A program made the position numbers and the translations under genes. Below the pieces are notes generated by a model, which was not told where the DNA came from, did not search any database, and saw only the letters and a program-made list of their open reading frames with translations. This document shows, piece after piece, positions 4,949-53,318 of a stretch of 64,000 bases of DNA. This DNA is from Burkholderiaceae bacterium (GTDB lineage Bacteria; Pseudomonadota; Gammaproteobacteria; Burkholderiales; Burkholderiaceae_C): positions 1 to 64,000 of the forward strand of contig JAIRVJ010000122.1 in the NCBI GenBank assembly GCA_031253955.1, in the 5' to 3' direction. The stretch's first letter is position 1. The number at the start of each line of letters is the position of its first letter.

Positions 4949-7108
4949 GTGTCCATCATGCTCATCATCGCCGAAAAGCCCTCGATGGCACGCAGCATCG
5001 CCGGCGTGCTGGGGCAACCCGTCCAGTGCGAAGGTTTCATCACATGCGCACGCGCCACCGTCACCTGGTGCGCGGGCCACCTGCTCGAACAATTGCAGCC
5101 CGAAGAATACTTCGGCGGCGCCTTCATTGGCCGCGAAGACTTGCCGGTGGTGCCCGATGTCTGGAAACTGCAAGCCAAGGATGGCCGCGCCCAGCATCAA
5201 ATCAACGTCATCCAGTCCCTGCTCAAGGATGCCAGGGAAGTGGTCAACGCGGGCGATGCCGACCGCGAAGGTCAATTGCTGGTCGATGAAGTCCTGATCC
5301 ATTTGGGCTGGAAAGGCAAAACGCTACGGCTGTGGACCGGCAGCCTCGACGATGAAAGCCTCAGACGGGCGCTGGCCAGCCTCAAACCCAACGAAGCCAT
5401 GCACAGTCTGTACGAATCGGCGCTGGCGCGCCAGCGCGCCGATTGGCTTTTGGGCTACAACGCCAGCATCGCTTTTTCGCGCAACCTCAAAGCGCAGGGT
5501 CTGGAAGGCGGCTGGTCCATAGGCCGCGTGCAAACCCCCACGCTGGCCCTGATCGTGGATCGAATGGCTCAAATCAAAGGCCATACCCGGCAGGATCACT
5601 ACACCATCAAGATCATCCTGAAAGACGGTACCGCTGCCGTTTGGCAAATTCCCGATGAACTGCTCACCGATGGCCTGATGCTCGACCAGCGATACGCCGA
5701 ACAACTGGCGCAAGAAGTCGATGGCAAAACCGGCGCGGTCCAATCGTTTGTCAAACGCCAAGGCACGCGCGCCGCGCCCTTACCCTACAGCCTGGCGGCC
5801 TTGCAAATGGAAGCCAACAGCCGAATCGGGCTTTCCGCCAAAGAAACGCTCGAAGCCGCGCAGGCGCTCTACGAAGCCAAGGCCACCACCTATCCCCGCA
5901 CCGATTGCCGCCACCTGCCCGAAGAAATGCACCCGGATGCCGCGCGCATCCTGCAAGCTATCGGCGCCGCCAGTGCCGGCGATGTCAATCCAGAGCGCCA
6001 ACACGCCGCCTGGAACGACCGGGAAATCACGGCCCACCACGCCATCATCCCCACCGGGCAAGCCCTGCCCGGGAACTTGAATGACAAGACCCAAAAAGTC
6101 TATGACCTCATCAAGGAATCCTACATCCGGCTCTTTATGGCCGATGAGCAATTCGAGCAACAGCAGGCCATCTTTGAATTCCACGGCAGCGATCAATTGA
6201 TCTTCAAAGCCACGGCCAAAAAGATCCTCCAGCCCGGCTGGACCGCCTTGGGCCAGGAAGTCAAAGACGACGAAAGCCAAAAAGCCGACGATGAATCGGG
6301 CAAAGTATTGCCCGGCTACACCGAAGGTCAGCCCATCCAGTGCGAAAAGGCTATGGTCGAAGCCAGACAAACCAAGCCGCCCAAGCCCTACAACGACAAA
6401 ACCCTGATCGCGGCCATGATCGGCATCCACAAACTGGTCACCGATCCCAAGCTTAAAGCGCGCCTGAAAGAAACCTCCGGCCTGGGCACCGAAGCCACCC
6501 GGGCGGCCATGATCGAAACCCTGATCGAGCGCGGCTACACAGAGCGCAAAAACAAGGAAATCCACCCCACCGAACGCGGCATCCGACTCATCATTTTGCT
6601 GCGCCAAAGCTGCCCAACCCTCACCGACCCCGGGGAAACTGCCATACAGGAAGACGCCCTGGCCGACATCGCCGCCAAAAAACTCCCCTTCGGGAAATTC
6701 ATGGAAAACGCCATCGAAAAGACCAGGAGCGCCACCCAAGCCCTGTCCAATCAAGTGGACGCCAACGTCCCCACGGCGCCCTGTCCGGCCTGCGGCAAGG
6801 ATGACTGCATCCAACTCAAGAGCAAGGCCGGCAACCTCTACTGGAAATGCCGCGCTTGCCAAGCCGCCTTCGGCGACCACCACGGCCAGCCCGGCAGGCT
6901 ATTCGAGAAAAGGCAAGAAAACACCGAAAACAAGAACAACCCCGCACCCGAACCCTGCCCGGCCTGCCCCAGGTGCAAGCAAAAAACAGGCAAATACCTG
7001 ACCCGCAACGACAAGCCCTACTTCCGTTGCGCCCAATGCAACCAGAGCTATTGGCCCGACTTTAAGGACAAGGCAAAGATCGGCAAGGCATGGGAGACCA
7101 CGAAATGA
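4949..7108 (+). CDS. topB: DNA topoisomerase III
   Basis: MLIIAEKPSMARSIAGVLG...DADREGQLLVDEVL...TYPRTDCRHLPEEM...; C-terminal Cys4 zinc motifs; GTG start. Confidence 0.95.
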   Translation: MSIMLIIAEKPSMARSIAGVLGQPVQCEGFITCARATVTWCAGHLLEQLQPEEYFGGAFIGREDLPVVPDVWKLQAKDGRAQHQINVIQSLLKDAREVVNAGDADREGQLLVDEVLIHLGWKGKTLRLWTGSLDDESLRRALASLKPNEAMHSLYESALARQRADWLLGYNASIAFSRNLKAQGLEGGWSIGRVQTPTLALIVDRMAQIKGHTRQDHYTIKIILKDGTAAVWQIPDELLTDGLMLDQRYAEQLAQEVDGKTGAVQSFVKRQGTRAAPLPYSLAALQMEANSRIGLSAKETLEAAQALYEAKATTYPRTDCRHLPEEMHPDAARILQAIGAASAGDVNPERQHAAWNDREITAHHAIIPTGQALPGNLNDKTQKVYDLIKESYIRLFMADEQFEQQQAIFEFHGSDQLIFKATAKKILQPGWTALGQEVKDDESQKADDESGKVLPGYTEGQPIQCEKAMVEARQTKPPKPYNDKTLIAAMIGIHKLVTDPKLKARLKETSGLGTEATRAAMIETLIERGYTERKNKEIHPTERGIRLIILLRQSCPTLTDPGETAIQEDALADIAAKKLPFGKFMENAIEKTRSATQALSNQVDANVPTAPCPACGKDDCIQLKSKAGNLYWKCRACQAAFGDHHGQPGRLFEKRQENTENKNNPAPEPCPACPRCKQKTGKYLTRNDKPYFRCAQCNQSYWPDFKDKAKIGKAWETTK

Positions 7109-7199: not shown

Positions 7200-8291
7200 A
7201 TGAACAAACATCTTGAACAGATACTGCCGGGCAGTTTGAAATCGCCGATAGGCCGCGACTATCACTGGAACTGGGTGAAAAACTTTGTCCGCGAGAACCT
7301 GGGCATAACCACCGGCATGAGTCTGCTGTTGCTTGTCATGGTGTATGTCGGGGTCAGTTGGCAAATTCCTGTTGAATCATTTGTCCAGCAGGTGTTGGCG
7401 GTGGTCATGATTTTTGGCGTATTGGGCCTTATGGCGCTTTCGATTCGGATGGCGTTGCATGAAGACGTGGGCACGATGGGCGGTGTTGCACGTCAACTTG
7501 TCTGGTATCTGATCACGTACTTTGTTGTGTTGTGGATGATCGGTGCAATTGGCGACAACACCTATCGCTGGATCATTGTCAATCCCAATACAACGGCAGA
7601 GATAACAGTTTCGCTCCTGATCTGCTGGGCTATCTTGCGCATCAGCAAAATCAGCAAGTATGCGGCGCCCTCCGTGATCGCCGACAACAACATGGCCCCC
7701 GGCATCGCGCTGCGCAAAACCCCGACACCACGCGACGACAGCTACACAGCCGCGCACGAAGCCGGACATACGTTGCTGTATGCGGTCCTTGACGAGCTTC
7801 CAGGGGACTTCAAGGTCATCGTTAACGAGTATGCCGACCCCAACGGCTCCCTCGGAAGCGTCAGCGCCATCAGCTATGTGAATTGCCACGAAGAAAAATT
7901 GCTTGTCGAGTGGGAAATCCTGGTTTTACTGGCCGGCCAGCTTGGCGAAGAAGCTATCTTGGGCAGCACAACGATGGGCAGCGGAAACGATTATCACCGC
8001 TGGCTGGGCTACGCCCGCCGCTATCTCGCTAATCACTATCGCGGCATCTACTACGACGAACCGCAGAACAAGTTCGAGCAGGAACAAAACGAAGCCAAGC
8101 TGCAAGCGTTGCAAGCCGGACAAGTGGCTCTGCTGCACAAGTTCTTTGCCATGAACGCAGAGTTGCTCAAACAGCTTGCCGATACTTTACTGGAGAAACG
8201 AAGCATGGGCCGTGAACAGATAACCCCATTTCTGAGCCGCGCGACACTGCCGGATGGTTTTCCGCGTCCCTGCGTCCGTTTAATTCATTAG
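7200..8291 (+). CDS. Membrane-anchored M41 (FtsH-type) peptidase-like protein lacking an AAA domain
   Basis: N-terminal TM segments, then YTAAHEAGHTLLYAV and LLAGQLGEEAILGSTTMGSGNDYHRWLGYAR, matching the FtsH zinc-protease layout; no Walker A/B. Confidence 0.75.
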   Translation: MNKHLEQILPGSLKSPIGRDYHWNWVKNFVRENLGITTGMSLLLLVMVYVGVSWQIPVESFVQQVLAVVMIFGVLGLMALSIRMALHEDVGTMGGVARQLVWYLITYFVVLWMIGAIGDNTYRWIIVNPNTTAEITVSLLICWAILRISKISKYAAPSVIADNNMAPGIALRKTPTPRDDSYTAAHEAGHTLLYAVLDELPGDFKVIVNEYADPNGSLGSVSAISYVNCHEEKLLVEWEILVLLAGQLGEEAILGSTTMGSGNDYHRWLGYARRYLANHYRGIYYDEPQNKFEQEQNEAKLQALQAGQVALLHKFFAMNAELLKQLADTLLEKRSMGREQITPFLSRATLPDGFPRPCVRLIH

Positions 8292-9141: not shown

Positions 9142-9530
9142 TTGGCCGTCTCGGCCAAAACCCTGAAATCAAACACAAGGCCGGCGAAGACGACGAATTC
9201 GCCATCGCCTCTGTGGCCACCACCCGCACCTGGAAAAACGCCAGCGGCGAAAAGCAAGAAGCCACCGAATGGCACCGGCTCGTGTTCTTCCGTAAACTGG
9301 CCCAGATCGCCAAAGAGCACCTCAAAAAAGGCGCTCTCATCTGGGTGCGCGGTCCCATCCAGACCCGCAAGTGGGCCGACGACAGCGGCACAGAACACTA
9401 CAGCACCCAAATTGTCGTCAATGAAATCAGGATGCTGGGCAAGCCAGCCGCAAAAGACGAACCGGAAGCCGGGACAGACGCAGATGCTGGCGCCGAAAGC
9501 GCCAGCATGGATGCGTTTGTGGGAGATTGA
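9120..9530 (+). CDS. ssb: Single-stranded DNA-binding protein
   Basis: MFNEATLIGRLGQNPEI...TEWHRLVFFRKLAQIAKEHLKKGALIWVRGPIQTRKW...; acidic tail. Confidence 0.95.
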   Translation: MFNEATLIGRLGQNPEIKHKAGEDDEFAIASVATTRTWKNASGEKQEATEWHRLVFFRKLAQIAKEHLKKGALIWVRGPIQTRKWADDSGTEHYSTQIVVNEIRMLGKPAAKDEPEAGTDADAGAESASMDAFVGD

Positions 9531-9534
9531 GCGC

Positions 9535-10131
9535 ATGAAAATAACAGCCTGGATAAAAGCATGGTGCTTCCTCTTCCTTTTGGCGGGAACCCTTGCCCAT
9601 GCTTTCATGGCTGCATCATCTGCCAAGGCAGCGGTCTGGACTTCGGGAGCGGCCCCGTGCCATCCCGAAGTCAATTTCTCACCCGAAAACTCAATCACCG
9701 GCAATGCGCAACAACTGGTCGAGCAAGTCCTCCAATCGGCCAAAAAGTCGATCCGGCTGGCCGGCTATACCTTCACATCGCCAGCCATCGTCCGCAGCCT
9801 CATCGCGGCCAAGCGCCGGGGGGTGGATGTACAGGTTCTGGTGGACGACAAAGGCAACCACGGACCAGCTTCCGTGGCCGCCCTCAACCTGCTGGCCCAG
9901 GCCGCCATTCCGGTGCGCACGATTGGGGTTTACCCCATCCATCACGACAAATACATCGTCGCCGATAGCTCCACAGTGGAAACCGGCAGCTTCAATTTCA
10001 CCAAAGCCGCCGCCGAAAAAAACAGCGAAAACGCTCTCGTGCTCTGGAACTGCGAAAGCATCGCCAAAGCCTACTTGAACCACTGGACTTCAAGATGGAA
10101 CCAGGGCAAAAACTGGCAATTGAATTATTGA
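9535..10131 (+). CDS. nuc: Secreted phospholipase-D-superfamily nuclease (Nuc-like)
   Basis: Signal peptide; single HKD motif HHDKYIVADSSTVETGSFNFT. Confidence 0.85.
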   Translation: MKITAWIKAWCFLFLLAGTLAHAFMAASSAKAAVWTSGAAPCHPEVNFSPENSITGNAQQLVEQVLQSAKKSIRLAGYTFTSPAIVRSLIAAKRRGVDVQVLVDDKGNHGPASVAALNLLAQAAIPVRTIGVYPIHHDKYIVADSSTVETGSFNFTKAAAEKNSENALVLWNCESIAKAYLNHWTSRWNQGKNWQLNY

Positions 10132-10550: not shown

Positions 10551-10874
10551 ATGGAAGCAACCACCGAATTCGTGTTGATCGAAAAAATTCAGCGCCTTGA
10601 GCGGCAAGTAACACACCTGCAACGTGAGCTGCGGCGGACAGAGAGGGCGACCTTTGGAGCCATGCTCGGCCCGCTTCGCCTACGGGAAACCGTGTTGCTC
10701 TATATCGGCACAGAGGATGCGGCCCAGTTCTCCGAACGACTGGCGCGAGAGTTCGATACGGAGGTCGCTTGTCAGGCGCTGCAACACCTGTTTGATCTGA
10801 ACCGTGCTCCTGTTCCTGATGAACTGCGCGAAGCGATGCGTGCAGTCTTTAATCATGGAATGCGCCGGTGGTAG
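10551..10874 (+). CDS. Hypothetical coiled-coil protein
   Basis: 107 aa ORF with helical N-terminus. Confidence 0.5.
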   Translation: MEATTEFVLIEKIQRLERQVTHLQRELRRTERATFGAMLGPLRLRETVLLYIGTEDAAQFSERLAREFDTEVACQALQHLFDLNRAPVPDELREAMRAVFNHGMRRW

Positions 10875-10899
10875 GACCCATTCAAGAAAGGTCATTGAA

Positions 10900-11967
10900 A
10901 TGGACATTCGCGCCCAGGAAGTCCGCCGCCGCGGTCTGGAAGCTCTGGCCCGCTACTTTGGCCCCATCATCAACGAAGCCTTGGCCGATCCCCAGGTTAT
11001 CGAAGTCATGCTCAACCCGGACGGAAAGCTCTGGATTGACTATTTGGGCGAGCGCGGCATGGTGAAAGCTGGCGAGTTGGATGCTGCGCAAGGACTGGGT
11101 ATCATCACCACGGTAGCCGGCATTCTGGAAGCCGAAGTCACTTCCGACAAACCCATTCTCGAATGTGAGCTACCTTCCGATGGCAGCCGCTTTGAGGGCT
11201 TGATTGCCCCTATCGTCACCGGGCCGACCTTCGCTATCAGAAAAAAAGCATCGCTGATCTACACCCTGGACGACTACGTTGCAAAAAATATCATGACGTT
11301 GAGCCAGAAAGACGCCCTTGAACAGGCCGTGTACAGCCAGCATGGAAAAGTTTCCGGCCCGGAGCAAATTTACCAAGATGCGATCCAACAAGCTATCTCT
11401 TATCGGGAAAAAACCTCTAAAAATGCTTTGGAACAGACTATTGCCAACCGGGAGAACATCCTTGTATCCGGCGGCACCGGCACTGGCAAAACCACCCTGG
11501 CCAATGCCATGCTGGAAGCCATTGCCCGCATTTGCCCGCGGCACCGCATCATCATCATTGAAGACACCCGCGAACTTCAATGCAAGGCCGAAAACGTGGT
11601 GCCCCTCAGAACCAGCGACAACGTGGACATGACGATGCTGCTGCGCGCCACCATGCGCCTGCGCCCGGACCGCATTATCGTCGGTGAAACCCGCGATAAA
11701 AGCGCCCTGGCGCTGCTCAAGGCATGGAACACCGGCCATCCGGGCGGCATCAGTACCGTCCACGCCAACAATTCGGCGGCGGCCCTGGTGCGCATCGGCC
11801 AGTTGATCCAGGAAGCCGGCGTTCCCCCCGCCCCCGAATTGATCGCCGAAGCCGTCAATGTGGTCGTTTCTATGGTTCGCACCGCCACCGGACGCATAGT
11901 CGAGGAAGTCATTCGGGTCAAAGGCTATAGACCCGAATACGGCTTCGAGACGGAGCGGATTGCCTAA
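10900..11967 (+). CDS. trbB: TrbB/VirB11 T4SS ATPase
   Basis: GGTGTGKTTLANAML, RIIIIEDTRELQCKAENVVPLRT, TMRLRPDRIIVGETRDKSALALLKAWNTGHPGGISTVHANN. Confidence 0.93.
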   Translation: MDIRAQEVRRRGLEALARYFGPIINEALADPQVIEVMLNPDGKLWIDYLGERGMVKAGELDAAQGLGIITTVAGILEAEVTSDKPILECELPSDGSRFEGLIAPIVTGPTFAIRKKASLIYTLDDYVAKNIMTLSQKDALEQAVYSQHGKVSGPEQIYQDAIQQAISYREKTSKNALEQTIANRENILVSGGTGTGKTTLANAMLEAIARICPRHRIIIIEDTRELQCKAENVVPLRTSDNVDMTMLLRATMRLRPDRIIVGETRDKSALALLKAWNTGHPGGISTVHANNSAAALVRIGQLIQEAGVPPAPELIAEAVNVVVSMVRTATGRIVEEVIRVKGYRPEYGFETERIA

Positions 11968-12401: not shown

Positions 12402-12482
12402 CGGTAGCGGCCTCGGTGCACCCGCATCCTGGCGAGTTTCAAAACTTCCACGAGTTCAATTTTTTCACGAAGGAGTCCATCA

Positions 12483-13636
12483 TGGCTTTTATGAATGCAG
12501 GAAAAAACACGAACGAGTCTTCTCAGAAGACTCTCCCCGAAATCAGCGAGGCCGTTCAAAAGGCGCGGGTCGAAATGACGGACCGGCTGGTCGATCAGGC
12601 CGCCAAGGGCATCGCCCCCTGGAACCACAAGCTTGATCCAAATCTCGGGGAACGGCTGCCTTACAACCCGTTTTCCAAAACCAAGGAACACGATGCCCTG
12701 CGCGGGGCCAATGGCCTTCAACTGGCGTCCGTGGCCGAAGACAAAGGCTACAAAGACCCCCGTTGGATCAGCCGCAGCCAAATGCAGGAGCGGGGTTGGT
12801 CATTTAAAACCGGCGAAAAAGGCACCAATGTCGAGTTCTATTCCCCCAAGGGCACGGAGCGCACCCAATACAAACGTGACGATCAGGGCAATGAAGTCTT
12901 CGATGAAGACGGCAACCGCATGAAAGAAACGGTGGTATTGGAAAAATCCACGATTGGCGCGATACAAATGTTCAATCTGGAACAGGTGGTCGAAGGCAAA
13001 TTCGCCAAGACCCCCATTCCAGAGCTGGACAAAGCAGCGCGCCAGCCGGCCCTCAAGGAATTGAACGAGACATTTGCCAAATCCGGGATCGAAGTGCGGG
13101 ACGCAATGTCCGGCGCACCATCGCATATAGGGGTGCAAGGCAAAGGCGCCATCTACCTGTCTGAACCAGACAAGGGCAATGATGTCGCTAAAGCCCAATT
13201 GATGGTGCGCGGCATGGCGGCCAAGGCGCTGACCCTGGACACCGCCGGCGGCTGGAGCAGGGCCGATAGCGACAGGACCAAATTTATCAAAACCGAATTG
13301 CGGATCGAATTGGCGAGCCGCCTTCTGTCCGATAAATATGCCATCCCGAACCAGACCGAGCGGCTGGACGATCTAAAAGGCCACGTAGCGCAGACTTTGG
13401 ACGAAATCAACGGCAAAACCCGAGAAAAAGACCAAATCCGCTTCGCGGCCCGCGACGCCGACCGCGCGGTCACGCGCGTGCTCGACGGTAACTGGAGCCG
13501 GTCCCAGGAATGGAGCCGCAACCAAAACCGCGAGCAGCAGCCCGAACGCTCCCAGCAAGAGCAGCCAGAGCATCCGCAGGAGGTCAAGGCTCCAGCCAAG
13601 TCCCGATCAAAGGGCAAGGCTTTGGAGCGTGGCTAA
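12483..13636 (+). CDS. ArdC-like antirestriction protein (ssDNA-binding N-terminal domain)
   Basis: MTDRLVDQAAKGIAPWNHKL...LPYNPFSKTKEHDALRGANGLQL...DPRWISRSQMQERGWSFKTGEKGTNVEFYSP; C-terminal KALERG. Confidence 0.75.
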
Positions 13637-13660: not shown

Positions 13661-13686
13661 GGGGGAGTGGCAACACTCCCCCTTTT
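13661..13686 (+). terminator. Terminator/attenuator between the ArdC-like and pentapeptide genes
   Basis: GGGGGAGTG-GCAA-CACTCCCCC-TTTT. Confidence 0.8.
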
Positions 13687-13714
13687 CCCGATGTTTTCAG
13701 GCAAGGAGCCAATC

Positions 13715-14554
13715 ATGGCTTTCATGAACCAAATCCCCGATCCATCGGATCAACAGCCCAAACAATCGCCCTACGATATTCTGGTGTGGCTCGATGGCAG
13801 CTATTGTTACCGGCTGGAACGGGAGCGCCCGGGCACGATGGCGGCGGCAAGACCGGATGGCTATCTTGCCGTCAGGGCCAACAGCCAGGCCCATCAAATG
13901 ATCGAAGGCCGACATTGGGATAGGGATCCGGGAGTGCCTGAAGCTCTCTATGACAAGGCCGCCCTGTACGAAAAGGATATTTCATTTCACACCGTGATTA
14001 AAAATGGATTATACCAGAAACTTTACGCCTGTGAAGCGCCCGGAATTCTTGACCGCGCGCAACGTCTGGGCTATGCGGCCAAACAGGCTATCGAGCAAGG
14101 CGTCAGTTTGAAAGGGGCGAATCTGGAGTATATGGAATTGAGTGACGCATCCTTGCGCGGGGTGGATTTTTCCTGCGCATCTTTAGGCAATGTGAAATTG
14201 TTGAGATGCGATATGGTTCACGCTTTGTTGGAAGGATCTGTTTTATACGGCATTGATTTGACCGGCACAAATTTGCAAGGAGCCAAATTCAAGAATGCCG
14301 TCCTGACCCATGCAAACTTCACCAACGCTAATCTGGAAAACGCAGATTTCACGGATGTAATTACCATCTACGGAGCCAATTTCACAGGCGCGCATATTGA
14401 TCGGACACATGGCCTGAAGGAAAAACTGCGCGACAAAGCGCCTGCCAAAGAATCTTGGGAATTGACCGACGCTGAAATCGAAAGCATCGGGCGCGAAGCA
14501 CCCGCCTCTGTCTCCCGCGCGCCCTCCCGTAAGGTTGCCAGCCTAGAACGCTAG
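13715..14554 (+). CDS. Pentapeptide-repeat protein with SLER C-terminus
   Basis: LKGANLEYMELSDASLRGVDFSCASL...LTGTNLQGAKFKNAVLTHANFTNANLENADF; N-terminal MAFMN as in the ArdC-like protein. Confidence 0.75.
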   Translation: MAFMNQIPDPSDQQPKQSPYDILVWLDGSYCYRLERERPGTMAAARPDGYLAVRANSQAHQMIEGRHWDRDPGVPEALYDKAALYEKDISFHTVIKNGLYQKLYACEAPGILDRAQRLGYAAKQAIEQGVSLKGANLEYMELSDASLRGVDFSCASLGNVKLLRCDMVHALLEGSVLYGIDLTGTNLQGAKFKNAVLTHANFTNANLENADFTDVITIYGANFTGAHIDRTHGLKEKLRDKAPAKESWELTDAEIESIGREAPASVSRAPSRKVASLER

Positions 14555-14566
14555 GGGGACACACCT

Positions 14567-16498
14567 ATGCCCACAGCAGCAGCCGGTCCATCCGCCCTCT
14601 ACCAAATTCCCAAGACCGAGCGCGACCCGGCGCGCCTGATCTGGTGGGGCATCTTCGTGTGGATTTTCATCTCGATTTCCGCTTGCTGGCTTACCAGCCA
14701 GTACATGGCCTGGGCCTTGAACCTCAAACCCGTGGCGATGCCCTGGGATTGCTTTTTCTGGTTCTGGGACTACAACAAACAAGAATACGGCGAACACGTC
14801 CTTTCCGTCATAGGCCGCGCCCATGTGCTGCTGGGTGCCGGCGCGCTCATTTCCATGTTCGTGCCCGCCAGCCTGATGTGGAAACAAAAAAGCCGCGTGC
14901 ACGGCCAGCGCAACGACCTTTACGGCTCGGCCCATTGGGCCACACCAGACGAAGTGGCGGCCACCGGCCTGCTGCCCGACGACAAAAACAAAGGCGGCGT
15001 GCTGTTCGGCGCCTACAACGACGGCTCGCGCATCCAGTACCTGCGGCACAAGGGACCGGAACACATGCTGGTATTCGCGCCCACCCGCTCCGGCAAGGGC
15101 GTGGGCATCGTCATCCCCACCCTCTTGTCCTGGGATCAGTCGGTGCTGGTCAACGACATCAAGGGCGAGAACTGGGAACTGTCCAGCGGCTTCCGGCAGC
15201 GGGCGCTGGGCCAGCGTTGCATCCGCTTTGCCCCAGCCGATGAAGGATCGGCCCGGTTTAATCCGCTCAACGAAATCCGCATGGACAACAAGAATCTGAT
15301 CAAGGACGTGCAAAACATTGCCACCATGATCGTCGATCCTGACGGCAAGGGCCTGGAAGACCACTGGGCCAAGACCGGCTTTGACCTGCTGGTGGGCGCC
15401 ATCCTGTACATCCTGCTGGAAGAAAAAATCCGGCAAAAAAATCTCGCCGGCGTCGCCGCGCTGCTCTCCGATGGCGGCGAAATCCGCCAGATTGCCGCGC
15501 AAGAGGCCAAGAAAGGCCGCAAACCCGAAGACGGCGAAATCGATGGCGCGCAAGCGGTAATGCTCTACATCGCCAAAGTCGCCAACGAAAAACTCGAACA
15601 GAACCAATTCCGGGGCGATGCGCGCGGCCAGGCTGAGCGCATCGGCTGGAACGTGGCCGCCCAGGCTGCCGGCGCCATGAACAACAAGGCGCCCAACGAA
15701 TTTTCCGGCGTCATGTCCACCAGCCTGAGTTTTCTGACACTGTACCGCGACTCCGTGGTCGCGCAAAACACCTCCGCCTCGGACTTTTCCATCGAGGATC
15801 TGATGGGCGCGGGGTTCGATCCCAGCGGCAAACCCAAAGGCCCGAAGGTCAGCCTGTACATCGTCAGCCCGCCCAGCGACAAAGACCGCATCAAGCCGCT
15901 CACGCGCCTGATCCTGAACATGACGCTGCGCCGCCTGACCGAAGGCATGTCCTACAACGAGGATGGCACCAGCAAGAGCCTGTACCCGCACCGGCTGCTG
16001 CTGCTGATCGACGAATTTCCCAGCCTGGGCAAGCTCGACGTCTTCGAGGAAGCCCTGGCCTTTATCGCCGGCTACGGCCTGAAAGCCCTGCTCATCACAC
16101 AGGACTTGAGCCAGCTTCAAAAAGCGTACACCAAAGACGAATCCATCGTCAGCAACTGCCACATCCGTATCGCTTACGCCCCCAACAAGGTTGAAACCGC
16201 CGATCTGCTTTCGCAAATGACCGGCAAGATGACCGTCACCCAAACGCAGCTTCAGTATTCCGGCAGCCGTCTGGCCATGATGCTGCACAACGTCAACACC
16301 AGCGAAAACACCGTGGGCCGCGAACTGCTCACGCCCGATGAGTGCATGAGACTGCCGCCCGACGATGAACTGGTCTTCATGGCCGGCCACAGCCCGATCT
16401 ATTGCCAGAAGATCAAGTACTACGCCGACCAGCAGCTCTACGAGCGTATGCAGATGCGCGCGGCGCAATCGAATGCGCCGCAAGGAATGCTGGCATGA
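14567..16498 (+). CDS. traG: TraG/VirD4 type IV coupling protein
   Basis: VFAPTRSGKGVGIVIPTLLSWDQSVLVNDIKGENWELSSGF; LLLIDEFPSLGKLDVFEEALAFIAGYGLKALLITQDLSQLQ; N-terminal TM segments. Confidence 0.95.
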   Translation: MPTAAAGPSALYQIPKTERDPARLIWWGIFVWIFISISACWLTSQYMAWALNLKPVAMPWDCFFWFWDYNKQEYGEHVLSVIGRAHVLLGAGALISMFVPASLMWKQKSRVHGQRNDLYGSAHWATPDEVAATGLLPDDKNKGGVLFGAYNDGSRIQYLRHKGPEHMLVFAPTRSGKGVGIVIPTLLSWDQSVLVNDIKGENWELSSGFRQRALGQRCIRFAPADEGSARFNPLNEIRMDNKNLIKDVQNIATMIVDPDGKGLEDHWAKTGFDLLVGAILYILLEEKIRQKNLAGVAALLSDGGEIRQIAAQEAKKGRKPEDGEIDGAQAVMLYIAKVANEKLEQNQFRGDARGQAERIGWNVAAQAAGAMNNKAPNEFSGVMSTSLSFLTLYRDSVVAQNTSASDFSIEDLMGAGFDPSGKPKGPKVSLYIVSPPSDKDRIKPLTRLILNMTLRRLTEGMSYNEDGTSKSLYPHRLLLLIDEFPSLGKLDVFEEALAFIAGYGLKALLITQDLSQLQKAYTKDESIVSNCHIRIAYAPNKVETADLLSQMTGKMTVTQTQLQYSGSRLAMMLHNVNTSENTVGRELLTPDECMRLPPDDELVFMAGHSPIYCQKIKYYADQQLYERMQMRAAQSNAPQGMLA

Positions 16499-18150
16499 AA
16501 AAAGAAAAACTGCTCCTGGCAAGCCGGATCCTTGCCATCCCGGCTGGAATCCTGTTTGGAATCTGCGCCGAAAAGATTGCGCACCTGACCGGTGCCGGCC
16601 CTCTGCTGCTGGGCGCCTGTTTGCTGGCGGCCATGTCCGCAGCGCTGATCTGGAAACAAAAGAACCGCGTCCGCCGTCAGCGTGATGACACCCGGGATTA
16701 CACCCCTTGGGCTACGTCGTCTCAAATCGAAGCCACCGGCTTGCTGGCTGATGAAAAAAACGCAGGCGGTGTGCTGCTGGGCGCTTCCCACGGCGGCGGC
16801 AGGAGTATCCAGCACTTGTGCAGCAAGGCAGCGGAACACATTCTGGTGGTTGGCCGGGAGCGTTCGGGCAAGAGTGTGGGCATCGTCATTCCGACCCTGC
16901 TCAGTTGGGACCAGTCGGTGCTGGTCTATGACATTGCCGGAGAAAGTTGGGAACTCACCAGCGGTTTCCGGGAACGGGTCCTTGGCCAGCGTTGCATCCG
17001 CTTTGCACCCTCGCAAGAAGGATCGGCCCGATTCAACCCGCTCGATGCGATCCGCATGGATCAGAACCTGGTGAACGACGTACAGAACATCGTCGCCATG
17101 ATTGTCGATCCAGACGGTAAGGACATACACGATCACTGGTTCCATACCAGTTTCAACCTGCTGGCTGGCAGCATTCTTTATGTCCTGCTGGAAGAAAAAA
17201 TCCGGCAAAAAAGCCTGGAAAGTGTGGGCGATCTGCTCGTGGGTCTCGGTGATTTGCGGCAGACTATCGCTGATGAGGCTGGCAACGGCAATACATCACG
17301 CGCGGCCATGTCTTACATGGTCCGGGCCGCCAATGAAAAGCTCAAAAAGAACGATTTCCCCGACACACCGTGCGGTCAGGCCGAACGTGACGGCTGGAAG
17401 CTGGTTGCCCAAACCGTCGGTGGCACGAAGGGCAAAGAGTCCACTGAATATTCGGCTGTCTTGTCAATGAGCCTGCGTTTGCTGCGCCCCTATTGCGAAG
17501 ACTCCATCATCGCGCAAAACACCGCGACCTCGGACTTCTCCATCGATGACCTGATGGGCGGCGGCTTCAATGAGAACGGCCAGCCCAGAGGTCCGAAGGT
17601 CAGCTTGTACATCGTCGCGCCGCCCCATGACAAAGACCGTATCAGGCCGCTCACGCGCCTGATCCTGCACATGACGCTGCGCCGCCTGACCGAAGGCAAC
17701 CCGGACAGCGCCAGCAAGAGCGGGCATCCGCACCGGCTCCTGTTCCTGATCGACGACTTTCCTAGCCTGGGCAAGCTTAACGTATTGGAACAAGCTCTGG
17801 CCTTGACCGCAGACTATGGTTTTAAAGCCTTGCTTACCGCGCAAAGCCTGGCTCAATTGCAAGAGGCATATGGCAAGGATTCATTGATTATTCCCTATTG
17901 CAATATTCGTCTCAGACTCAGCAAGGATGAAATCATCGATTGGTTTTTTACCGGTGAAAACACTGCGGGCTATGAATTGCTCGTGCCCGATGCGTACATA
18001 AGTTTGCCGCCCGATGATGAACTGGTCTTTATGGCCGGTCACAGCCCGATTCATTGCCAGAAGATCAAGTATTACGCCGATCCGCAGCTTAAGGAGTGCG
18101 CCCAAATGGGCGCGGCCACCAGCAACGAACACAACCCCAACCCCCCGTGA
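16495..18150 (+). CDS. Second, divergent TraG/VirD4-like paralogue
   Basis: ATGA overlap with traG; near co-linear with it; GRERSGKSVGIVIPTLL; LFLIDDFPSLGKLNVLEQAL; internal deletion near the C-terminus. Confidence 0.9.
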   Translation: MKKEKLLLASRILAIPAGILFGICAEKIAHLTGAGPLLLGACLLAAMSAALIWKQKNRVRRQRDDTRDYTPWATSSQIEATGLLADEKNAGGVLLGASHGGGRSIQHLCSKAAEHILVVGRERSGKSVGIVIPTLLSWDQSVLVYDIAGESWELTSGFRERVLGQRCIRFAPSQEGSARFNPLDAIRMDQNLVNDVQNIVAMIVDPDGKDIHDHWFHTSFNLLAGSILYVLLEEKIRQKSLESVGDLLVGLGDLRQTIADEAGNGNTSRAAMSYMVRAANEKLKKNDFPDTPCGQAERDGWKLVAQTVGGTKGKESTEYSAVLSMSLRLLRPYCEDSIIAQNTATSDFSIDDLMGGGFNENGQPRGPKVSLYIVAPPHDKDRIRPLTRLILHMTLRRLTEGNPDSASKSGHPHRLLFLIDDFPSLGKLNVLEQALALTADYGFKALLTAQSLAQLQEAYGKDSLIIPYCNIRLRLSKDEIIDWFFTGENTAGYELLVPDAYISLPPDDELVFMAGHSPIHCQKIKYYADPQLKECAQMGAATSNEHNPNPP

Positions 18151-18157
18151 GAACCGC

Positions 18158-18334
18158 ATGAAATTCACCCTGACCATCACCGATGCCGGCGACACAAAAG
18201 TTGATGTCAATTTCAACTTTGATCCGCCCCTTGACGCTGAGATCGAACAGGACACCTTTGCCGCCTATCTGGCGCGCGTCGTTTTGGAAGCCCTTCGCAA
18301 TGAACAGCGCGCCCTGGAAGGAACACAGACATGA
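18158..18334 (+). CDS. Small hypothetical protein
   Basis: 58 aa, MKFTLTITDAGDTKVDVNFNFDPP..., overlaps traF start. Confidence 0.5.
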   Translation: MKFTLTITDAGDTKVDVNFNFDPPLDAEIEQDTFAAYLARVVLEALRNEQRALEGTQT

Positions 18335-18906
18335 GCGGGAACCATCCTGTTTCAAAAGATGAATCCCCGGTCAAAAAGAAACCCCGTAAAAAAACATTTC
18401 TGATGGTTGGAATTGCGATGGGCATTTTGCTCGGAATGTATGCCGGCGTAGGCAGTTTGCACGCGATGGGCTTGCGCATCAACCTGTCGAGCAGTGAACC
18501 CTTGGGCCTGTACTGGATGCACCCTTACCAGGGCAACACCCTCGCCAAGGGCGACTTGATCGAATTTTGTCCGGCCATCCGGCAGCAAGACTTTCCGTTC
18601 ACCTTGCGCGGCGCCTGCCCTGGCGGGGTCATGCCTTTCCTGAAAGAAGTCATCGGCGTGCCGGGCGACCTGGTGCAAGTCACTGACCAGGGTGTCAGTG
18701 TCAACGGTCAGGCCATCGCCGACAGTCAGCCCAAAGACCATTCCGAGGTCACGCAAAAGCCGTTGCCGCACTGGCGCGGCCAAACCACGCTGCGCGCCGG
18801 CCAATACTGGGTCTACGGATCGGGCGATACCAAAAATAGCTTCGATTCCCGCTATTACGGCCCCATCACGGCGCCGCAGATCATTTCCCTCAAAAAGTCT
18901 GGCTGA
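18331..18906 (+). CDS. traF: TraF-like conjugative signal peptidase (S26)
   Basis: INLSSSEPLGLYWMHP...KGDLIEFCP...LKEVIGVPGDLVQVTDQGVSVNGQ...YWVYGSGDTKNSFDSRYYGPI. Confidence 0.9.
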   Translation: MSGNHPVSKDESPVKKKPRKKTFLMVGIAMGILLGMYAGVGSLHAMGLRINLSSSEPLGLYWMHPYQGNTLAKGDLIEFCPAIRQQDFPFTLRGACPGGVMPFLKEVIGVPGDLVQVTDQGVSVNGQAIADSQPKDHSEVTQKPLPHWRGQTTLRAGQYWVYGSGDTKNSFDSRYYGPITAPQIISLKKSG

Positions 18907-19022
18907 CAGCCAAAAAACATGCGATGGACGATAACGACAGGAACAAGTTGCCGACAGCTACCCAAGCGTGATCGCGCACTGGAGCCGTAAACTCAATAAC
19001 CTTGCCCCGAAAGAACCTCACC

Positions 19023-20528
19023 ATGAAACAACCCGCGCGGCGCCAATTCGACGAACCTGACCTGCTCGAAATTCAGGAGGAAGTCATCCAGGCGGTCCAG
19101 GCCGACCCGGAAAAGTTCTTTGCGCGCTACAAGGCATTCCCCCAATCGTTCGGCGGACGCTACGTCAATTCCGACCTTTTCAAGGAAACCTTCGAGCCAT
19201 ACAACCGGTCAAAAGAATCCAGAGGCCGCTACAACCAGGCTGTCCACAATAGCGCCGCGACCCTGGCGGCGGAGCAATTCAGAAGAGCCTTGCAAGAGCC
19301 AAAAGAACCCGGCAAGGATATGGTCATTTTATTGACTGGAATTCCGGGCGCCGGTAAAACTTCTTCTGTCATGAAGGATGAAAAGATGCCTTTTCAGGTT
19401 CATGCCATTTATGAAGGACAATTGGCGGTTCCCGAAGTGGCTCTTGGCAAAGTTCAGGAAGTTCTGGATGCAGGATTCAAGCCTTTTATTGTGGTGGTAC
19501 ACCCAATACCAGAAAAGGCGCTGGATAATACATTTCATCGTTTCAATACGGAAGGCCGTGGCGCCAGCATTGAAACTATGGCGAAAGTCCAGGGTGAAAT
19601 GACCACAGGATTAATGGCGGTACTTGACAAGTTCGGGCCGGATCGGGTACAATTACAGATAACGGATCGCCGGAAAGATTATTTTGATCCGGTGACATTG
19701 GAAGGCTGGGAACATCTCCCTGTTTTAAGATCGGAAGGCAATCATGAACAAATCAGACAAAGACTTGAACGGCGCCTTGAAGCCAGACGAAACGACATTT
19801 CCGACGACGCCTGGCGGCAAGCCAAGGGACTCGCGCCCCTCGGAGAAATTCAGTCCAGCAGAGTGGCTGGCCGCGAACATGAGAGCAATCTCGCGCGACC
19901 CGAAGCTCCTGGCGGAAGTCGAGAAGAGGCTGTTCTAACCCGCTCCAGCCCCGCCCGCAACCCGGCGCGGTGGATGGAACTGGACTCGGACATTTCCAGG
20001 GAAATCAGCGACCACATGGCCGTCCAGTCGGCCCTGGCCCACCTTGGCGAGGACATCGACACCCTGCGCGAAGCCGCCGAAGGCCGCCCCCTGAACGATG
20101 CCCAGCGCCAAATGCTGCGCGATGGCTGGAACGGCCGCCTCATCCTGGGCGATGACCGGCTCACCCGCCTTGGCGAGCTGGCCTACAGCACCGCCAGCAA
20201 GCAGCTTGCCGCCCCTGAGCGGCAATCCCCCGAAATCAGCGAGCAAGAGCGTCAAGACCTGGCCCAGCAGCGCCAGTGGCAGCAGCGCCAAATCCAGTCG
20301 CGCAACATCGCCCAGCGCGAAGAAGCCGACAGCAAGGCACAGGAACTGACCCGCAAGATCGAAGGGCTGAAAGAGCAGGCAGCCGAAATCAAGGCCGGCG
20401 AAACATCCGAACCAGCCAAGCAAGAGCGCATCGAACAGCTACATAAACAGGAGCGCGACATCGTGCGCGAAGCGCCGCAGGAAGTGCGCGCTAGGATACC
20501 CAAGCGCGACCGCGGGCTGGAACGGTAA
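19023..20528 (+). CDS. Zeta-toxin-like P-loop kinase fused to a long charged C-terminal region
   Basis: GGRYVNSDLFKETF and VILLTGIPGAGKTSSVMKDE; coiled-coil C-terminus ending KRDRGLER. Confidence 0.7.
   Translation: MKQPARRQFDEPDLLEIQEEVIQAVQADPEKFFARYKAFPQSFGGRYVNSDLFKETFEPYNRSKESRGRYNQAVHNSAATLAAEQFRRALQEPKEPGKDMVILLTGIPGAGKTSSVMKDEKMPFQVHAIYEGQLAVPEVALGKVQEVLDAGFKPFIVVVHPIPEKALDNTFHRFNTEGRGASIETMAKVQGEMTTGLMAVLDKFGPDRVQLQITDRRKDYFDPVTLEGWEHLPVLRSEGNHEQIRQRLERRLEARRNDISDDAWRQAKGLAPLGEIQSSRVAGREHESNLARPEAPGGSREEAVLTRSSPARNPARWMELDSDISREISDHMAVQSALAHLGEDIDTLREAAEGRPLNDAQRQMLRDGWNGRLILGDDRLTRLGELAYSTASKQLAAPERQSPEISEQERQDLAQQRQWQQRQIQSRNIAQREEADSKAQELTRKIEGLKEQAAEIKAGETSEPAKQERIEQLHKQERDIVREAPQEVRARIPKRDRGLER
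19744..19938 (+). CDS. Candidate nested out-of-frame ORF within the zeta-like gene
   Basis: 64 aa MNKSDKDLNGALKPDE...SPAEWLAANMRAISRDPKLLAEVEKRLF, preceded by GGAAGGCAATC. Confidence 0.3.
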   Translation: MNKSDKDLNGALKPDETTFPTTPGGKPRDSRPSEKFSPAEWLAANMRAISRDPKLLAEVEKRLF

Positions 20529-21434: not shown

Positions 21435-21758
21435 ATGAACCGTACCCTGCACCATCCTGCCCTGAAATGGGCTGCTATTACCGCCATAACCCTTGGCGCG
21501 GCAGCCACGGCCTCGGCGCGCGGCCATGTGGCAGTCGGAATATCGCTGCCCGGCGTGGTCATCGGCGCCGGCGGCCCGGTGATGTACTCCGCGCCGGCGG
21601 TGTACCCCTACGCCTACCCGTACCCCTATACCTGGGCAGTCCCTTACGCCTATCCGGCGTATGCGTACCCGTATGGCTATGCCGCTCCCCTTTCGCTCTA
21701 CTACGGACGCTCCGGCTCTTGGCGCCCCGCAGGGCGGTACTATAGACAGCGGCGCTGA
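21435..21758 (+). CDS. Secreted Tyr/Pro-rich protein
   Basis: Signal peptide then YPYAYPYPYTWAVPYAYPAYAYPYGYAAP. Confidence 0.6.
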   Translation: MNRTLHHPALKWAAITAITLGAAATASARGHVAVGISLPGVVIGAGGPVMYSAPAVYPYAYPYPYTWAVPYAYPAYAYPYGYAAPLSLYYGRSGSWRPAGRYYRQRR

Positions 21759-21769
21759 CGAAAAACCGC

Positions 21770-22111
21770 ATGGCCTTCCTGGAACCCGTCCCACAACCCG
21801 CCGAACAGCAGGCGTGGACCATGACCGCCCGCGGGCAGGAAGAACACCTGCTGGCGCGCTGCGCCGCCATCGCGCACGGCGCCGGCCAGCCGCTCGATCC
21901 GCGCGAAGCCAACGTATGCAACGTGGCCGCCATGATCCTTGGCCGCCACCTGGACCGCCAGGCCCGCAACCTCGCCCGGGCCAGCCGGCGCTACTTCGAG
22001 GCGCACCCTCACGAAAAGCTGGAACCCGGCCAAGTCGTAGGCAAAGGCTGGATCTCCGGCTTGCCGCGCCTGCGCGACATGCTCATCCGCAAGATCGAAG
22101 GACGGTCATGA
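21770..22111 (+). CDS. Hypothetical protein (first gene of a two-gene pair)
   Basis: 113 aa; overlaps downstream start at ATGA. Confidence 0.6.
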   Translation: MAFLEPVPQPAEQQAWTMTARGQEEHLLARCAAIAHGAGQPLDPREANVCNVAAMILGRHLDRQARNLARASRRYFEAHPHEKLEPGQVVGKGWISGLPRLRDMLIRKIEGRS

Positions 22112-22746
22112 ATCCCGAATTCCACACCGGCACCGCACTGGCTGGCGCGCTGCGAAAAATTCTGCGGCGCCTGGAACAAGAAATCGCGCCCGACGCACCC
22201 ATCTGCGTTTACTTGGCCGGCGGCATGGCCGTTCACCTGTACACCGGCAAGCGCGTCACCACCGACATCGATGCCGAATTCAGCCGCCGCATCGTCCTTC
22301 CTCCCGACTTGACAGTGGACGTGACCCTGGAAGACGGCTCTGAAAAGCTGGTCTACCTGGACGGAAACTACAACTCGACCTTTGGCCTCATGCACGAGGA
22401 CTACCTTGAGGATGCCCTCCCGATCAATCTGGGGACCGGCAAATTCTCGGTGTGCGTGCTCGCGCCGGTCGATCTGGCCGTTAGCAAAATCGCCCGTCTG
22501 GCCGACAGCGACAAGGAAGACATCGCCGAACTGGCCCGCGCGGGCCTGACCACAGCAGAGGCCATCGAGCAGCGCGCACGCGAAGCGGCAAAGTACTGCG
22601 CCGCCCCGCCGGTGCTGCTGGAGTACAACATCCGCGACGCGGTAGAAATCGCGCGCCAGGCGCAAACGCAAAAAACACCCGAACAGCCGCTTCAAGAGCG
22701 TCGGTGGCTGTCCCCAAAGCATCAGCGCGGCGGTCTGGAGCGATAG
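22108..22746 (+). CDS. Nucleotidyltransferase-fold-like protein (DUF6036/MNT-like) with GLER C-terminus
   Basis: ICVYLAGGMAVHLYTGKRVTTDIDAEFS; later VDLAVSKIARLADSDKEDIAELA typical of these nucleotidyltransferases. Confidence 0.65.
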   Translation: MNPEFHTGTALAGALRKILRRLEQEIAPDAPICVYLAGGMAVHLYTGKRVTTDIDAEFSRRIVLPPDLTVDVTLEDGSEKLVYLDGNYNSTFGLMHEDYLEDALPINLGTGKFSVCVLAPVDLAVSKIARLADSDKEDIAELARAGLTTAEAIEQRAREAAKYCAAPPVLLEYNIRDAVEIARQAQTQKTPEQPLQERRWLSPKHQRGGLER

Positions 22747-34617: not shown

Positions 34618-37116
34618 ATGTGGAACTTGCGGGAATTCAGGAGCAAGGCGCTGGCGCTGCCCGATCTGCTGCCGTGGGCCTTCCTGGTCGAAAACGGCAT
34701 CGTGCTGACCAAGCAAGGCGGCCTGCTGGCCGGCTGGGAGTTCATCGGACCCGATCTGGATTCAGCCACGCGCGCCGAATTGACGGCGATGGCCGCCCGG
34801 ATCAATCGCGCTTTGATGCTGGGCGAAGGCTGGGTGATTCACTGCGACGCCATCCGCGAGTCGGCGCCAGGGTACGCGCCGGAAGGGGCGTTTCCGGACC
34901 GCACCACCCGGCTGATCGACGACGCGCGGCACCAGACGTGGTCGAGCCATTCGCCGGGGTTTCGCTCGCGCTATGTGCTGACCGTTACCTGGTTTGCCGA
35001 GCCGGACGCGGCCAACAAGGTCGCCAACCTGTTTGTCGAGGGCCGCAGCGGCAACGTGGCCCAGCGCAATCTGGAACGCTTCAAGGAACGGCTGGGCGAC
35101 ATCGAGGGCGCGCTGTCGGGGTTTCTCAATGTCAGGCGGCTGGCTGATTTCCCGGCAGGACATCCCGATCAGGCGCAAGGCTTTGATCCGTGGCGCGACG
35201 TGGGGCCGTTCGGGGCTTTTGCCTCGCCCTTGCTTGGGCATCTGGATCAATGCACGATGCCGGCGGTGGGCTTTCGCCCGCTGGTGTTCGGCGAGGTGCC
35301 GATGTACCTGGACAGCTTTTTGGGCACACACGATTTCCAGCCCGGCTTCGTGCCGTTCATTGACGAACATGGCGTGGCGTGTCTGGAGATTTCCCAGTTA
35401 CCCGCCAGCAGCCATCCGGGCCTGATGGATTTTCTTTCACGGATGCCCGTTGAGTACCGCTGGAGCTCGCGCTTCGTTGCGCTGGACATGCTGCAAGCCG
35501 AGAAGATCATCAACCGGCATCGCTCCAAGTGGGCCAACAAGCGCATCAGCATGTTGAACCACTTCCGCCAGTCCCAAGGCGGGCAGGTCTCGCACTACAA
35601 CCTGGATGCGGTCAACATGACCAACGATGCGGTGGACGCTCTGGCCGAAAACTCCAGCGGCGAAGTGCTGTACGGCTACTACACCAGCGTCATCCTGATC
35701 TCGCACACCGACCCGGCCATGCTCGAAGGCATTAGCCGGGAAGTGGCCAAGTTCATCCGGCAGCAGGGTTTCGGCGTGCGCATCGAAAGCGTCAACGCGG
35801 TCGAGGCATGGATGGGCACGCTGCCCGGCAACACGGTAGCCAATGTGCGCCGTCCGCTGATTCATACGCTCAACTTGGCGCACTTGTTGCCTCTGACCGC
35901 GGTGTGGGCCGGCGCCGATGAGCATCCGTGCCCGTTTTATCCGCCGCATTCGCCGCCGCTGTTTTTTGCGAAAACGGACGGGGCCACGCCATTGCGGGTC
36001 AGCCTGCATTCGGGCGATCTGGGCCACACTGTCATCGTGGGGCCGACCGGCGCAGGCAAATCGACGCTGCTGGGCTTGATCGCGGCACAACAGTTTCGCT
36101 ATCCGCGCGCCCAGGTCTTTGTCTTCGACAAGGGCTACTCGATGCAGCCGCTGGTGTGGGCCGCCGGCGGCGAGCACTACGACATCGCCGGCGATGGCAT
36201 GGACGAACTGACGTTCTGTCCGCTGGGCCGGATCGGCGAACCGTCCGAGCAGGATTGGGCCGCCGAATGGATCGAGGGGTTGGTGCAGCTTCAAGGCGTT
36301 GAGGTCACGCCGACGCATCGCAAACGTATTTACGAAGCCGTGGTCTCCCTAGCGCAGTCCACGGATCGGCCCGAGCAGCGCACGCTGACCAACTACGTCC
36401 TGGCCGTGCAGGACAACCAGTTGCGCGACGCCCTGAATGCCTACACCCTGCGCGGCGCCGGCGGCAAGCTGCTGGATGCCGAAAGCGATGCCTTGCGCGA
36501 AGACAGCTTTCAGGTCTTCGAGATGGAACACCTGATGCAAAAGGGCGAAAAGCTGCTGCTGCCCGTCTTGCTGTACCTGTTTCATCGGCTCGAGCAGCGT
36601 TTCAACGGCCAGCCGTCTTTGCTTGTGCTCGATGAAGCTTGGGTGATGTTTGGTCATGGGGTGTTCAAGCAAAAGATCTTCGAGTGGTTGAAGGTGCTGC
36701 GCAAGCTTAACGTTGCCGTGGTTTTTAGCACGCAGTCGCTGGCCGATCTGAACACGTCCGGCATTGCCGACGTGATCTTCGAGTCCTGCCCGACAAAAAT
36801 TTTGCTGGCCAACCCCGCCGCCGTCACCGACAACGTGCGCCCGATGTACGAGCGCATGGGTCTCAATGAGCGGCAAATCCAGATCGTGGCCCAGGGTGTG
36901 CCCAAGAAGGACTACTACATGGTGCACGCGGACGGCAAGCGGCAATTCGAGCTGGGACTGTCCCGCGCCGAACTGGCCTTTGTTGGCGTTTCCGACCGCG
37001 AGAACCTGGGCCGCATTCGCAAATTGAAAAAAGAAATCGGTGACCCATGGCCAGTCCAATGGCTTACCGAAAGAGGGCTGCCTGACGTTGCCCAACGCTG
37101 GGCGGCTTACGCGTAA
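34618..37116 (+). CDS. trbE: TrbE/VirB4 ATPase
   Basis: VIVGPTGAGKSTLLGLIAAQQ; LLVLDEAWVMFGHGVFKQKIFEWLKVLRKLNVAVVFSTQSLADL. Confidence 0.95.
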   Translation: MWNLREFRSKALALPDLLPWAFLVENGIVLTKQGGLLAGWEFIGPDLDSATRAELTAMAARINRALMLGEGWVIHCDAIRESAPGYAPEGAFPDRTTRLIDDARHQTWSSHSPGFRSRYVLTVTWFAEPDAANKVANLFVEGRSGNVAQRNLERFKERLGDIEGALSGFLNVRRLADFPAGHPDQAQGFDPWRDVGPFGAFASPLLGHLDQCTMPAVGFRPLVFGEVPMYLDSFLGTHDFQPGFVPFIDEHGVACLEISQLPASSHPGLMDFLSRMPVEYRWSSRFVALDMLQAEKIINRHRSKWANKRISMLNHFRQSQGGQVSHYNLDAVNMTNDAVDALAENSSGEVLYGYYTSVILISHTDPAMLEGISREVAKFIRQQGFGVRIESVNAVEAWMGTLPGNTVANVRRPLIHTLNLAHLLPLTAVWAGADEHPCPFYPPHSPPLFFAKTDGATPLRVSLHSGDLGHTVIVGPTGAGKSTLLGLIAAQQFRYPRAQVFVFDKGYSMQPLVWAAGGEHYDIAGDGMDELTFCPLGRIGEPSEQDWAAEWIEGLVQLQGVEVTPTHRKRIYEAVVSLAQSTDRPEQRTLTNYVLAVQDNQLRDALNAYTLRGAGGKLLDAESDALREDSFQVFEMEHLMQKGEKLLLPVLLYLFHRLEQRFNGQPSLLVLDEAWVMFGHGVFKQKIFEWLKVLRKLNVAVVFSTQSLADLNTSGIADVIFESCPTKILLANPAAVTDNVRPMYERMGLNERQIQIVAQGVPKKDYYMVHADGKRQFELGLSRAELAFVGVSDRENLGRIRKLKKEIGDPWPVQWLTERGLPDVAQRWAAYA

Positions 37117-52940: not shown

Positions 52941-53318
52941 ATGAGCATAGCCACAGTCAGTACACACCATAGCACGTCTCCCGATGGAACGAAGCGAACT
53001 AGGCACCTGAAGGTGCGTTGCACCCGCGGCGAGTATGAGGAAATCAGACGGCGCGCCGGGGAAGCGGGCATGAGTCTGAGCGAATACCTGCGCTGCGCGG
53101 CATTCAACCAACGCATCGTCGCCAAGGATGCCTATTCCATGATCGGCGAGCTGCGCAAGATCGGGGCGCTCATCAAGCACAACTACCCCTCGGTCAAGAG
53201 CTGGAGCGGGGAAGAAAGGCGTCGCTACTGGAAGAGTCATGAACAATTGCGGGAATTGGCCGATGCAATGGCTTGCATGATCGGATTGAAAAAAATAGCG
53301 AAGGAGCTATTGAAATGA
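52941..53318 (+). CDS. traJ: TraJ/MobC-like relaxosome accessory protein (RHH)
   Basis: RTRHLKVRCTRGEYEEIRRRAGEAGMSLSEYLRCAAFNQRI; precedes relaxase. Confidence 0.8.
   Translation: MSIATVSTHHSTSPDGTKRTRHLKVRCTRGEYEEIRRRAGEAGMSLSEYLRCAAFNQRIVAKDAYSMIGELRKIGALIKHNYPSVKSWSGEERRRYWKSHEQLRELADAMACMIGLKKIAKELLK

Follow-up and report, generated by a model that had tools for sequence, protein, structure and literature searches.

Why does a conjugative element carry two genes for coupling proteins, one directly behind the other? To our knowledge, coupling proteins of type IV systems (T4CPs) are generally regarded as homohexamers, with one gene per transfer system. In the window, a 64-kb stretch of DNA corresponding to contig C58 of a Burkholderiaceae assembly (2.6 Mb, 167 contigs), two such genes stand side by side; no further PF02534 gene occurs in that assembly. 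All coordinates given in the following are positions in the window, unless they carry a locus label.

14567-16498, + strand: traG1, a canonical TraG/VirD4-type coupling protein of 643 aa
16495-18150, + strand: traG2, a diverged and in all likelihood chimeric T4CP paralogue of 551 aa

An earlier note on this DNA had described the two as adjacent, translationally coupled paralogues, and its coordinates and frames are correct: the ATG of traG2 at 16495 overlaps the TGA of traG1 as ATGA, and the two proteins are 57% identical over 538 columns (BLASTP). Given this identity, and given that both exceed the curated PF02534 cut-off of 20.1 (346.6 bits for traG1, 228.5 bits for traG2), their pairing is not a matter of chance. 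A duplication introduced by the assembly can be ruled out as the source of traG2, because the copies are merely 57% identical. The first copy is 87% identical to the TraG of the closest relative (G008, a Burkholderiaceae MAG belonging to the same genus) and keeps all family-invariant motifs, with APTRSGKG and DEFPSLG as in its relatives. Judged by the gene content of the surroundings, the pair lies within a VirB-type conjugation system that has a single VirB4.

10804-11967, + strand: VirB11/TrbB-type ATPase belonging to this transfer system (T2SSE, PF00437)
18331-18906, + strand: traF, conjugative-transfer signal peptidase (S26; PF10502, E 2.8e-20)
34618-37116, + strand: VirB4-type ATPase, the sole PF03135 match in the genome
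37890-43578, + strand: VirB6, VirB8, VirB9 and VirB10-type genes (PF04610, PF04335, PF03524, PF03743)
53273-55219, + strand: relaxase, a MobA/VirD2 domain with TraI_middle and LPD7

The origin of the second copy can be read from its N-terminus. By hydropathy, traG1 has two transmembrane (TM) helices, at residues 22-43 and 78-105, with a periplasmic loop of ~35 residues between them. The alignment of traG2 to copy 1 begins at about residue 34 of the former and residue 84-85 of the latter; its TM2 spans residues 28-55 by hydropathy, only a few residues separate its two TM helices, and the TM1 and periplasmic loop of TraG are not part of it. The earlier note had taken this region for a shorter N-terminus. 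It does differ from that of TraG, but it appears to be derived from TraF rather than being a shortened TraG N-terminus.

16495-16593, + strand: probably TraF-derived N-terminus of traG2, residues 1-33 including TM1, from in-frame DNA matches to traF
16594-16659, + strand: start of the TraG-derived part of traG2 (TM2), from local DNA/protein alignment and hydropathy

Compared with TraG TM1, the traG2 N-terminus yields local scores of 14-18, that is, no match. By contrast, its sequence, LLASRILAIPAGILFGIC-AEKIAHLTG, aligns with the TraF anchor of G008, MTARRIVGTATAILLGMCVATLVLHAQG, at a score of 40 (core-shuffle p = 0.0018), which makes the latter the top non-self match of 757 TM segments. The same relationship is seen in the DNA: the TM1-coding segment of traG2 agrees in frame with G008 traF at 32/51 bases and with the traF of the window at 29/51, and of the 3,820 TM-coding segments compared, these two traF sequences rank highest after traG2 itself (null: mean 15.3, sd 3.3). 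G008 has no second traG copy; there, traF comes immediately after traG, and the two genes overlap as ATGA. From such an arrangement, a tandem duplication that began inside traG, at ~codon 85, passed over the overlap with traF and ended ~28 codons into the latter would have left traG complete and placed behind it, in frame, a traF'::'traG gene that inherited the ATGA coupling of traF to traG. An event of this kind would explain the gene order, the reading frame and the overlap of traG2 together. On these alignments, traG2 is in all likelihood a natural TraF-TraG chimera (traF'::'traG), and there is good support for its origin by a local traG-traF duplication. A fusion of this type would be a clear and checkable route for a secretion ATPase to swap its membrane anchor in one step.

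In protein trees, copy 2, copy 1 and the TraG of G008 form one clade (100/100). Within it, the order of splits is a trichotomy, which dates the duplication to roughly the time at which the two elements separated. The terminal protein branch of copy 2 is ~14-fold longer than those of copy 1 and G008 TraG (~1.15-1.19 versus 0.07-0.09). Such a long branch leaves the exact place of traG2 in the tree unsure and would thus leave room for its acquisition from another element instead of local duplication, but we consider this very improbable, since traG2 falls inside the clade of copy 1 and G008 TraG at 100/100 and resembles the local traF in its TM1, as a local duplication predicts. Gene conversion between the copies was ruled out as well, as the dS of copy 2, computed segment by segment for its branch, stays at 0.5-1.3, with no tract of low dS.

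What kind of protein resulted? AF2 models of both copies are poor (mean pLDDT 58 and 60) and no geometry was taken from them; for this reason, both copies were mapped by sequence alignment to Cag-beta (PDB 8dol), the closest solved structure to traG2 by sequence (E 3e-11). A fold search with the low-confidence traG2 model matches Cag-beta and TrwB. The ATPase activity of Cag-beta depends on R241 and K244 (Walker A) and on E551 (Walker B); a hairpin at residues 631-658 builds the 12-stranded barrel that keeps its hexamer together, with L183/F184 plugging the gap beside this barrel (PMC9886983).

15077-15100, + strand: Walker A of traG1, APTRSGKG, equivalent of GRERSGKS in traG2
16852-16875, + strand: Walker A of traG2, GRERSGKS, in which the counterparts of Cag-beta R241 (Arg) and K244 (Lys) are retained
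16010-16015, + strand: Walker B residues D482 and E483 of traG1, equivalent of D420-D421 in traG2
17752-17757, + strand: Walker B Asp-Asp of traG2, D420-D421, by alignment to copy 1
16193-16282, + strand: segment of traG1 absent from traG2, residues 543-572; deletion point near 17932 in traG2

At the mapped positions, copy 1 has R174, K177, E483, a full hairpin (~554-586) and L118/Y119 at the plug, and copy 2 has R123, K126, D421 and T66/R67, respectively, for the two Walker motifs and the plug. Hence, traG2 keeps the Walker A Lys, the cis Arg finger and the Walker B Asp, but has an Asp in place of the catalytic Glu; every other full-length relative read has DE at this site. This Walker B change in copy 2 (E483 to D421) had been noticed before, as had that of ITQDLSQ to TAQSLAQ, and both are present. 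The RSGKS that was said to be retained is indeed found in copy 2, with the correction that copy 1 reads APTRSGKG, so that the P-loop is more textbook in traG2 than in traG1. Likewise, the C-terminal gap in copy 2 exists, but it comprises 30 residues (E543-M572 of copy 1) and not ~35. According to the alignment, it overlaps the equivalent of Cag-beta 631-658 and removes the first strand of the barrel hairpin. As far as can be told from sequence, the changes to the membrane layer of traG2 fall into three separate stretches, whereas its nucleotide site is for the most part retained.

The residue changes in the earlier note are but a small sample, given that traG2 breaks 89 of the 247 positions that are invariant in 11 other TraGs, compared to 0-8 in other members. 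Such a count invites the question of whether the gene is still under selection. In a three-taxon codon model, in which copy 2 is known from a single genome and constraint is averaged along one branch, omega on the copy 2 branch is 0.26 versus 0.06 elsewhere (2dlnL = 33.9), and omega = 1 is rejected for this branch (2dlnL = 37.4). The branch has a dS of ~0.9, for which ~33 nonsense mutations would be expected under neutrality; the 551 open codons contain no internal stop. The earlier note had argued from the intact frame of over 550 codons that copy 2 is not simply decaying, and had named a dN/dS near 1 as evidence to the contrary; both the frame and the omega of 0.26 on this branch bear the argument out. 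Together with the absence of stops and frameshifts, this omega also rules out that traG2 is a pseudogene. A final neutral phase longer than ~7-9% of the copy 2 branch is unlikely, though a late loss of constraint may have spanned up to that share of it.

The remaining constraint is distributed unevenly over the protein. With layer boundaries that were set after the deletion had been seen, and p-values that are for this reason descriptive, traG2 keeps 10/50 family-invariant residues in the membrane-proximal layer and 111/144 in the ATPase core (Fisher p = 1.5e-12; 1e-6 without the deleted columns), and its omega is 0.21 in the core, 0.30 in the all-alpha domain (AAD) and 0.58 in the membrane-proximal layer (LRT p = 3e-5). 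Constraint was thus lost mainly in the membrane-proximal layer, and the ATPase core is still selected.

These values bear on the view that traG2 is a redundant duplicate in slow decay, retained by chance or through operon coupling. Several observations would fit it: the gene is found in a single genome only, its omega is fourfold up, its broken family-invariant sites are numerous (the 89 above), and its GC3 has dropped to 0.68, compared to 0.80 in copy 1. We nevertheless find slow decay unlikely, in view of the rejection of omega = 1, the lack of any of the ~33 stops expected on a neutral branch, the sharp differences in constraint between structural layers, and a synonymous divergence near 0.9, which implies long survival.

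No traG2 orthologue was found in 29 genomes of the genus, 401 of the family and 399 of the order, which yielded ordinary TraGs only, nor in collections of genome contigs, viral contigs and plasmids, which were scanned with short exact peptide patterns that can miss divergent copies. Tandem T4CPs were absent among the PF02534 matches listed for 124 positive genomes of the family, with up to three places scored in each (<=3), and in the neighbourhood of the top TraG place in two plasmids that have several. A search of the open-access literature returned no tandem T4CP of the traG2 design. IncA/C plasmids with two or three T4CPs have been reported, with no mention at that point of tandem paralogy (PMC9709138).

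Compared with known systems, traG2 stands as a novel variant within the T4CP family and does not represent a system of a new kind. With IncP/RP4-type TraG (VirD4/TraG, PF02534), it has in common the fold family, the two N-terminal TM helices and Walker A/B, and the element as a whole shares with IncP/RP4-type systems the traG-traF gene order and one VirB-type machine. It differs from RP4-type TraG in its probably TraF-derived TM1, the near absence of a periplasmic loop, the deleted first barrel strand, the Walker B Glu to Asp change, the altered family-invariant residues and the intact TraG adjoining it. Cag-beta (Cag5) of Helicobacter pylori, nearest by sequence and fold, has the same Arg-Ser-Gly-Lys in Walker A, but a full barrel hairpin and Glu551; its regulator CagZ, which traps Cag-beta as a monomer, is an unrelated protein, whereas traG2 encodes a T4CP paralogue. 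A division of the coupling function over two co-inherited proteins is also known from TraG-TraJ of H-type plasmids and TraI/TraJ of pIP501 (PMC7434980). Yet H-plasmid TraJ is a multi-helix membrane protein of ~200 residues and no paralogue of its TraG, and the pIP501 coupling proteins, unlike traG1 and traG2, are without a TMD (PMC7434980).

A further related case is man-made. The laboratory chimera TMD(TraJ pKM101)-CD(TrwB R388) resembles traG2 in combining a T4CP cytosolic domain with a foreign anchor, with the native protein alongside; it differs in that its anchor comes from another coupling protein and its cytosolic domain is complete, while traG2 is natural and its anchor apparently stems from a peptidase (PMC7431656). 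This chimera is partly active and negatively dominant, lowering transfer ~tenfold beside the native protein (PMC7431656). With this in mind, our first guess for traG2 is that it modulates TraG1.

Following this guess, the traG2 product would be a two-helix inner-membrane RecA-type ATPase on the signal-anchor helix of TraF, presumably unable to act as a stand-alone transfer channel and made together with TraG1 as an accessory subunit. It would most likely enter or compete with TraG1 rings, or occupy a VirB4/VirB11 docking face, and might in this way tune, and probably lower, the passage of substrates. From its sequence features, we infer altered oligomerisation, weak ATPase activity and a regulatory action. 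A mixed traG1/traG2 hexamer is a possible form of this explanation, and an atypical traG2 homo-oligomer could exist, too. While a selected accessory subunit working with or against copy 1 is the most likely role, we propose the explanation in its entirety, namely a TraF-anchored chimera with a lost barrel strand and a selected core that acts as accessory or regulatory partner of TraG1, only tentatively and with slightly less than even confidence. Its strictest version, in which traG2 would be a natural dominant-negative coupling protein, that is, a co-translated, TraF-anchored and barrel-less subunit that inhibits or modulates the transfer of DNA and proteins by joining the working hexamer or competing with it, seems rather unlikely to us. 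If traG2 is a selected, co-translated paralogue without the ring-closing layer, it would provide a natural handle on mixed T4CP rings, and also on how an element limits its own transfer.

Two other roles have to be weighed against an accessory subunit. The earlier note had suggested a separate cargo receptor that fits a set of candidate effectors, and an independent coupling protein could in principle bring different cargo through the same channel. The constraint on the ATPase core (omega 0.21) would agree with this, as would the stronger divergence of the cargo-facing all-alpha domain (omega 0.30, with an 8-residue gap), considering that this domain and the tail are the established site of substrate recruitment in T4CPs (PMC7434980). 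Still, traG2 is without the TM1 of TraG and its periplasmic loop; these parts help other T4CPs to contact VirB10 and to oligomerise (PMC7434980). The first barrel strand is missing, too, and traG2 has thus lost parts with which T4CPs dock and form a closed, conducting ring. Nor does it have an extra C-terminal receptor domain. Moreover, candidate cargo proteins that end in LER are also found in G008, beside a single traG, and hence do not depend on copy 2. On these grounds, the suggestion does not hold up well: an independent cargo receptor is less likely than an accessory subunit, and we deem it quite unlikely. Alternatively, traG2 may be a membrane ATPase repurposed outside coupling, for instance in exclusion, in immunity to related elements or in the control of pilus or relaxosome. 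A rewritten membrane-proximal layer on a retained NTPase core and the ATGA coupling to tra genes would be in line with this, but positive evidence for any such role is absent, and the family-level fold and the core motifs are still T4CP-like, which makes it improbable.

The candidate cargo proteins deserve a description of their own. Four proteins of the transfer region end in a basic ...LER tail (ALERG, SLER, GLER and GLER); they are an ArdC-like, a pentapeptide-repeat, a zeta-toxin-like and a DUF6036 nucleotidyltransferase protein. The genes concerned lie at 12416-13636, 13667-14554, 19002-20528 and 21661-22746, and at L005 47-790, 472-1275 and 3716-4345. The counterparts in G008 end in ALERA, GLQR and GLER (two LER, one LQR), and LERx-stop occurs just 6 times across all six frames of the window. 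The tail is possibly a shared signal for export through the coupling protein. A second pentapeptide-repeat protein is encoded on the minus strand at 45029-45904. The transfer region further encodes a nuclease of the PLD family that probably has a signal peptide (9142-10131), an M41-peptidase-like membrane protein without a match to an AAA domain (7200-8291) and a topoisomerase (4949-7108).

Finally, the junction between traG2 and traF holds a further small frame.

18158-18334, + strand: 58-aa orphan ORF between traG2 and traF, overlapping the start of traF by ATGA

It has no Pfam match, no second copy in the genome and no match in plasmids, and it is absent in G008, where traG abuts traF. The TraF of the window has ~20 extra N-terminal residues (MSGNHPVSKDESPVKKKPRKK) relative to that of G008. 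In other elements, the traG/traF junction carries differing extra genes, which gives it the look of a preferred site of insertion: a HipB/HipA-like pair, an EAL-domain-like protein, a lytic transglycosylase-like protein and an SSB, all named by eye except for the SSB. These junction genes are located at L031 11648-12594, L034 11654-13962, L038 11677-12474, L042 1797-2459, L039 11511-12092, L040 6782-7375 and L055 10197-10640.
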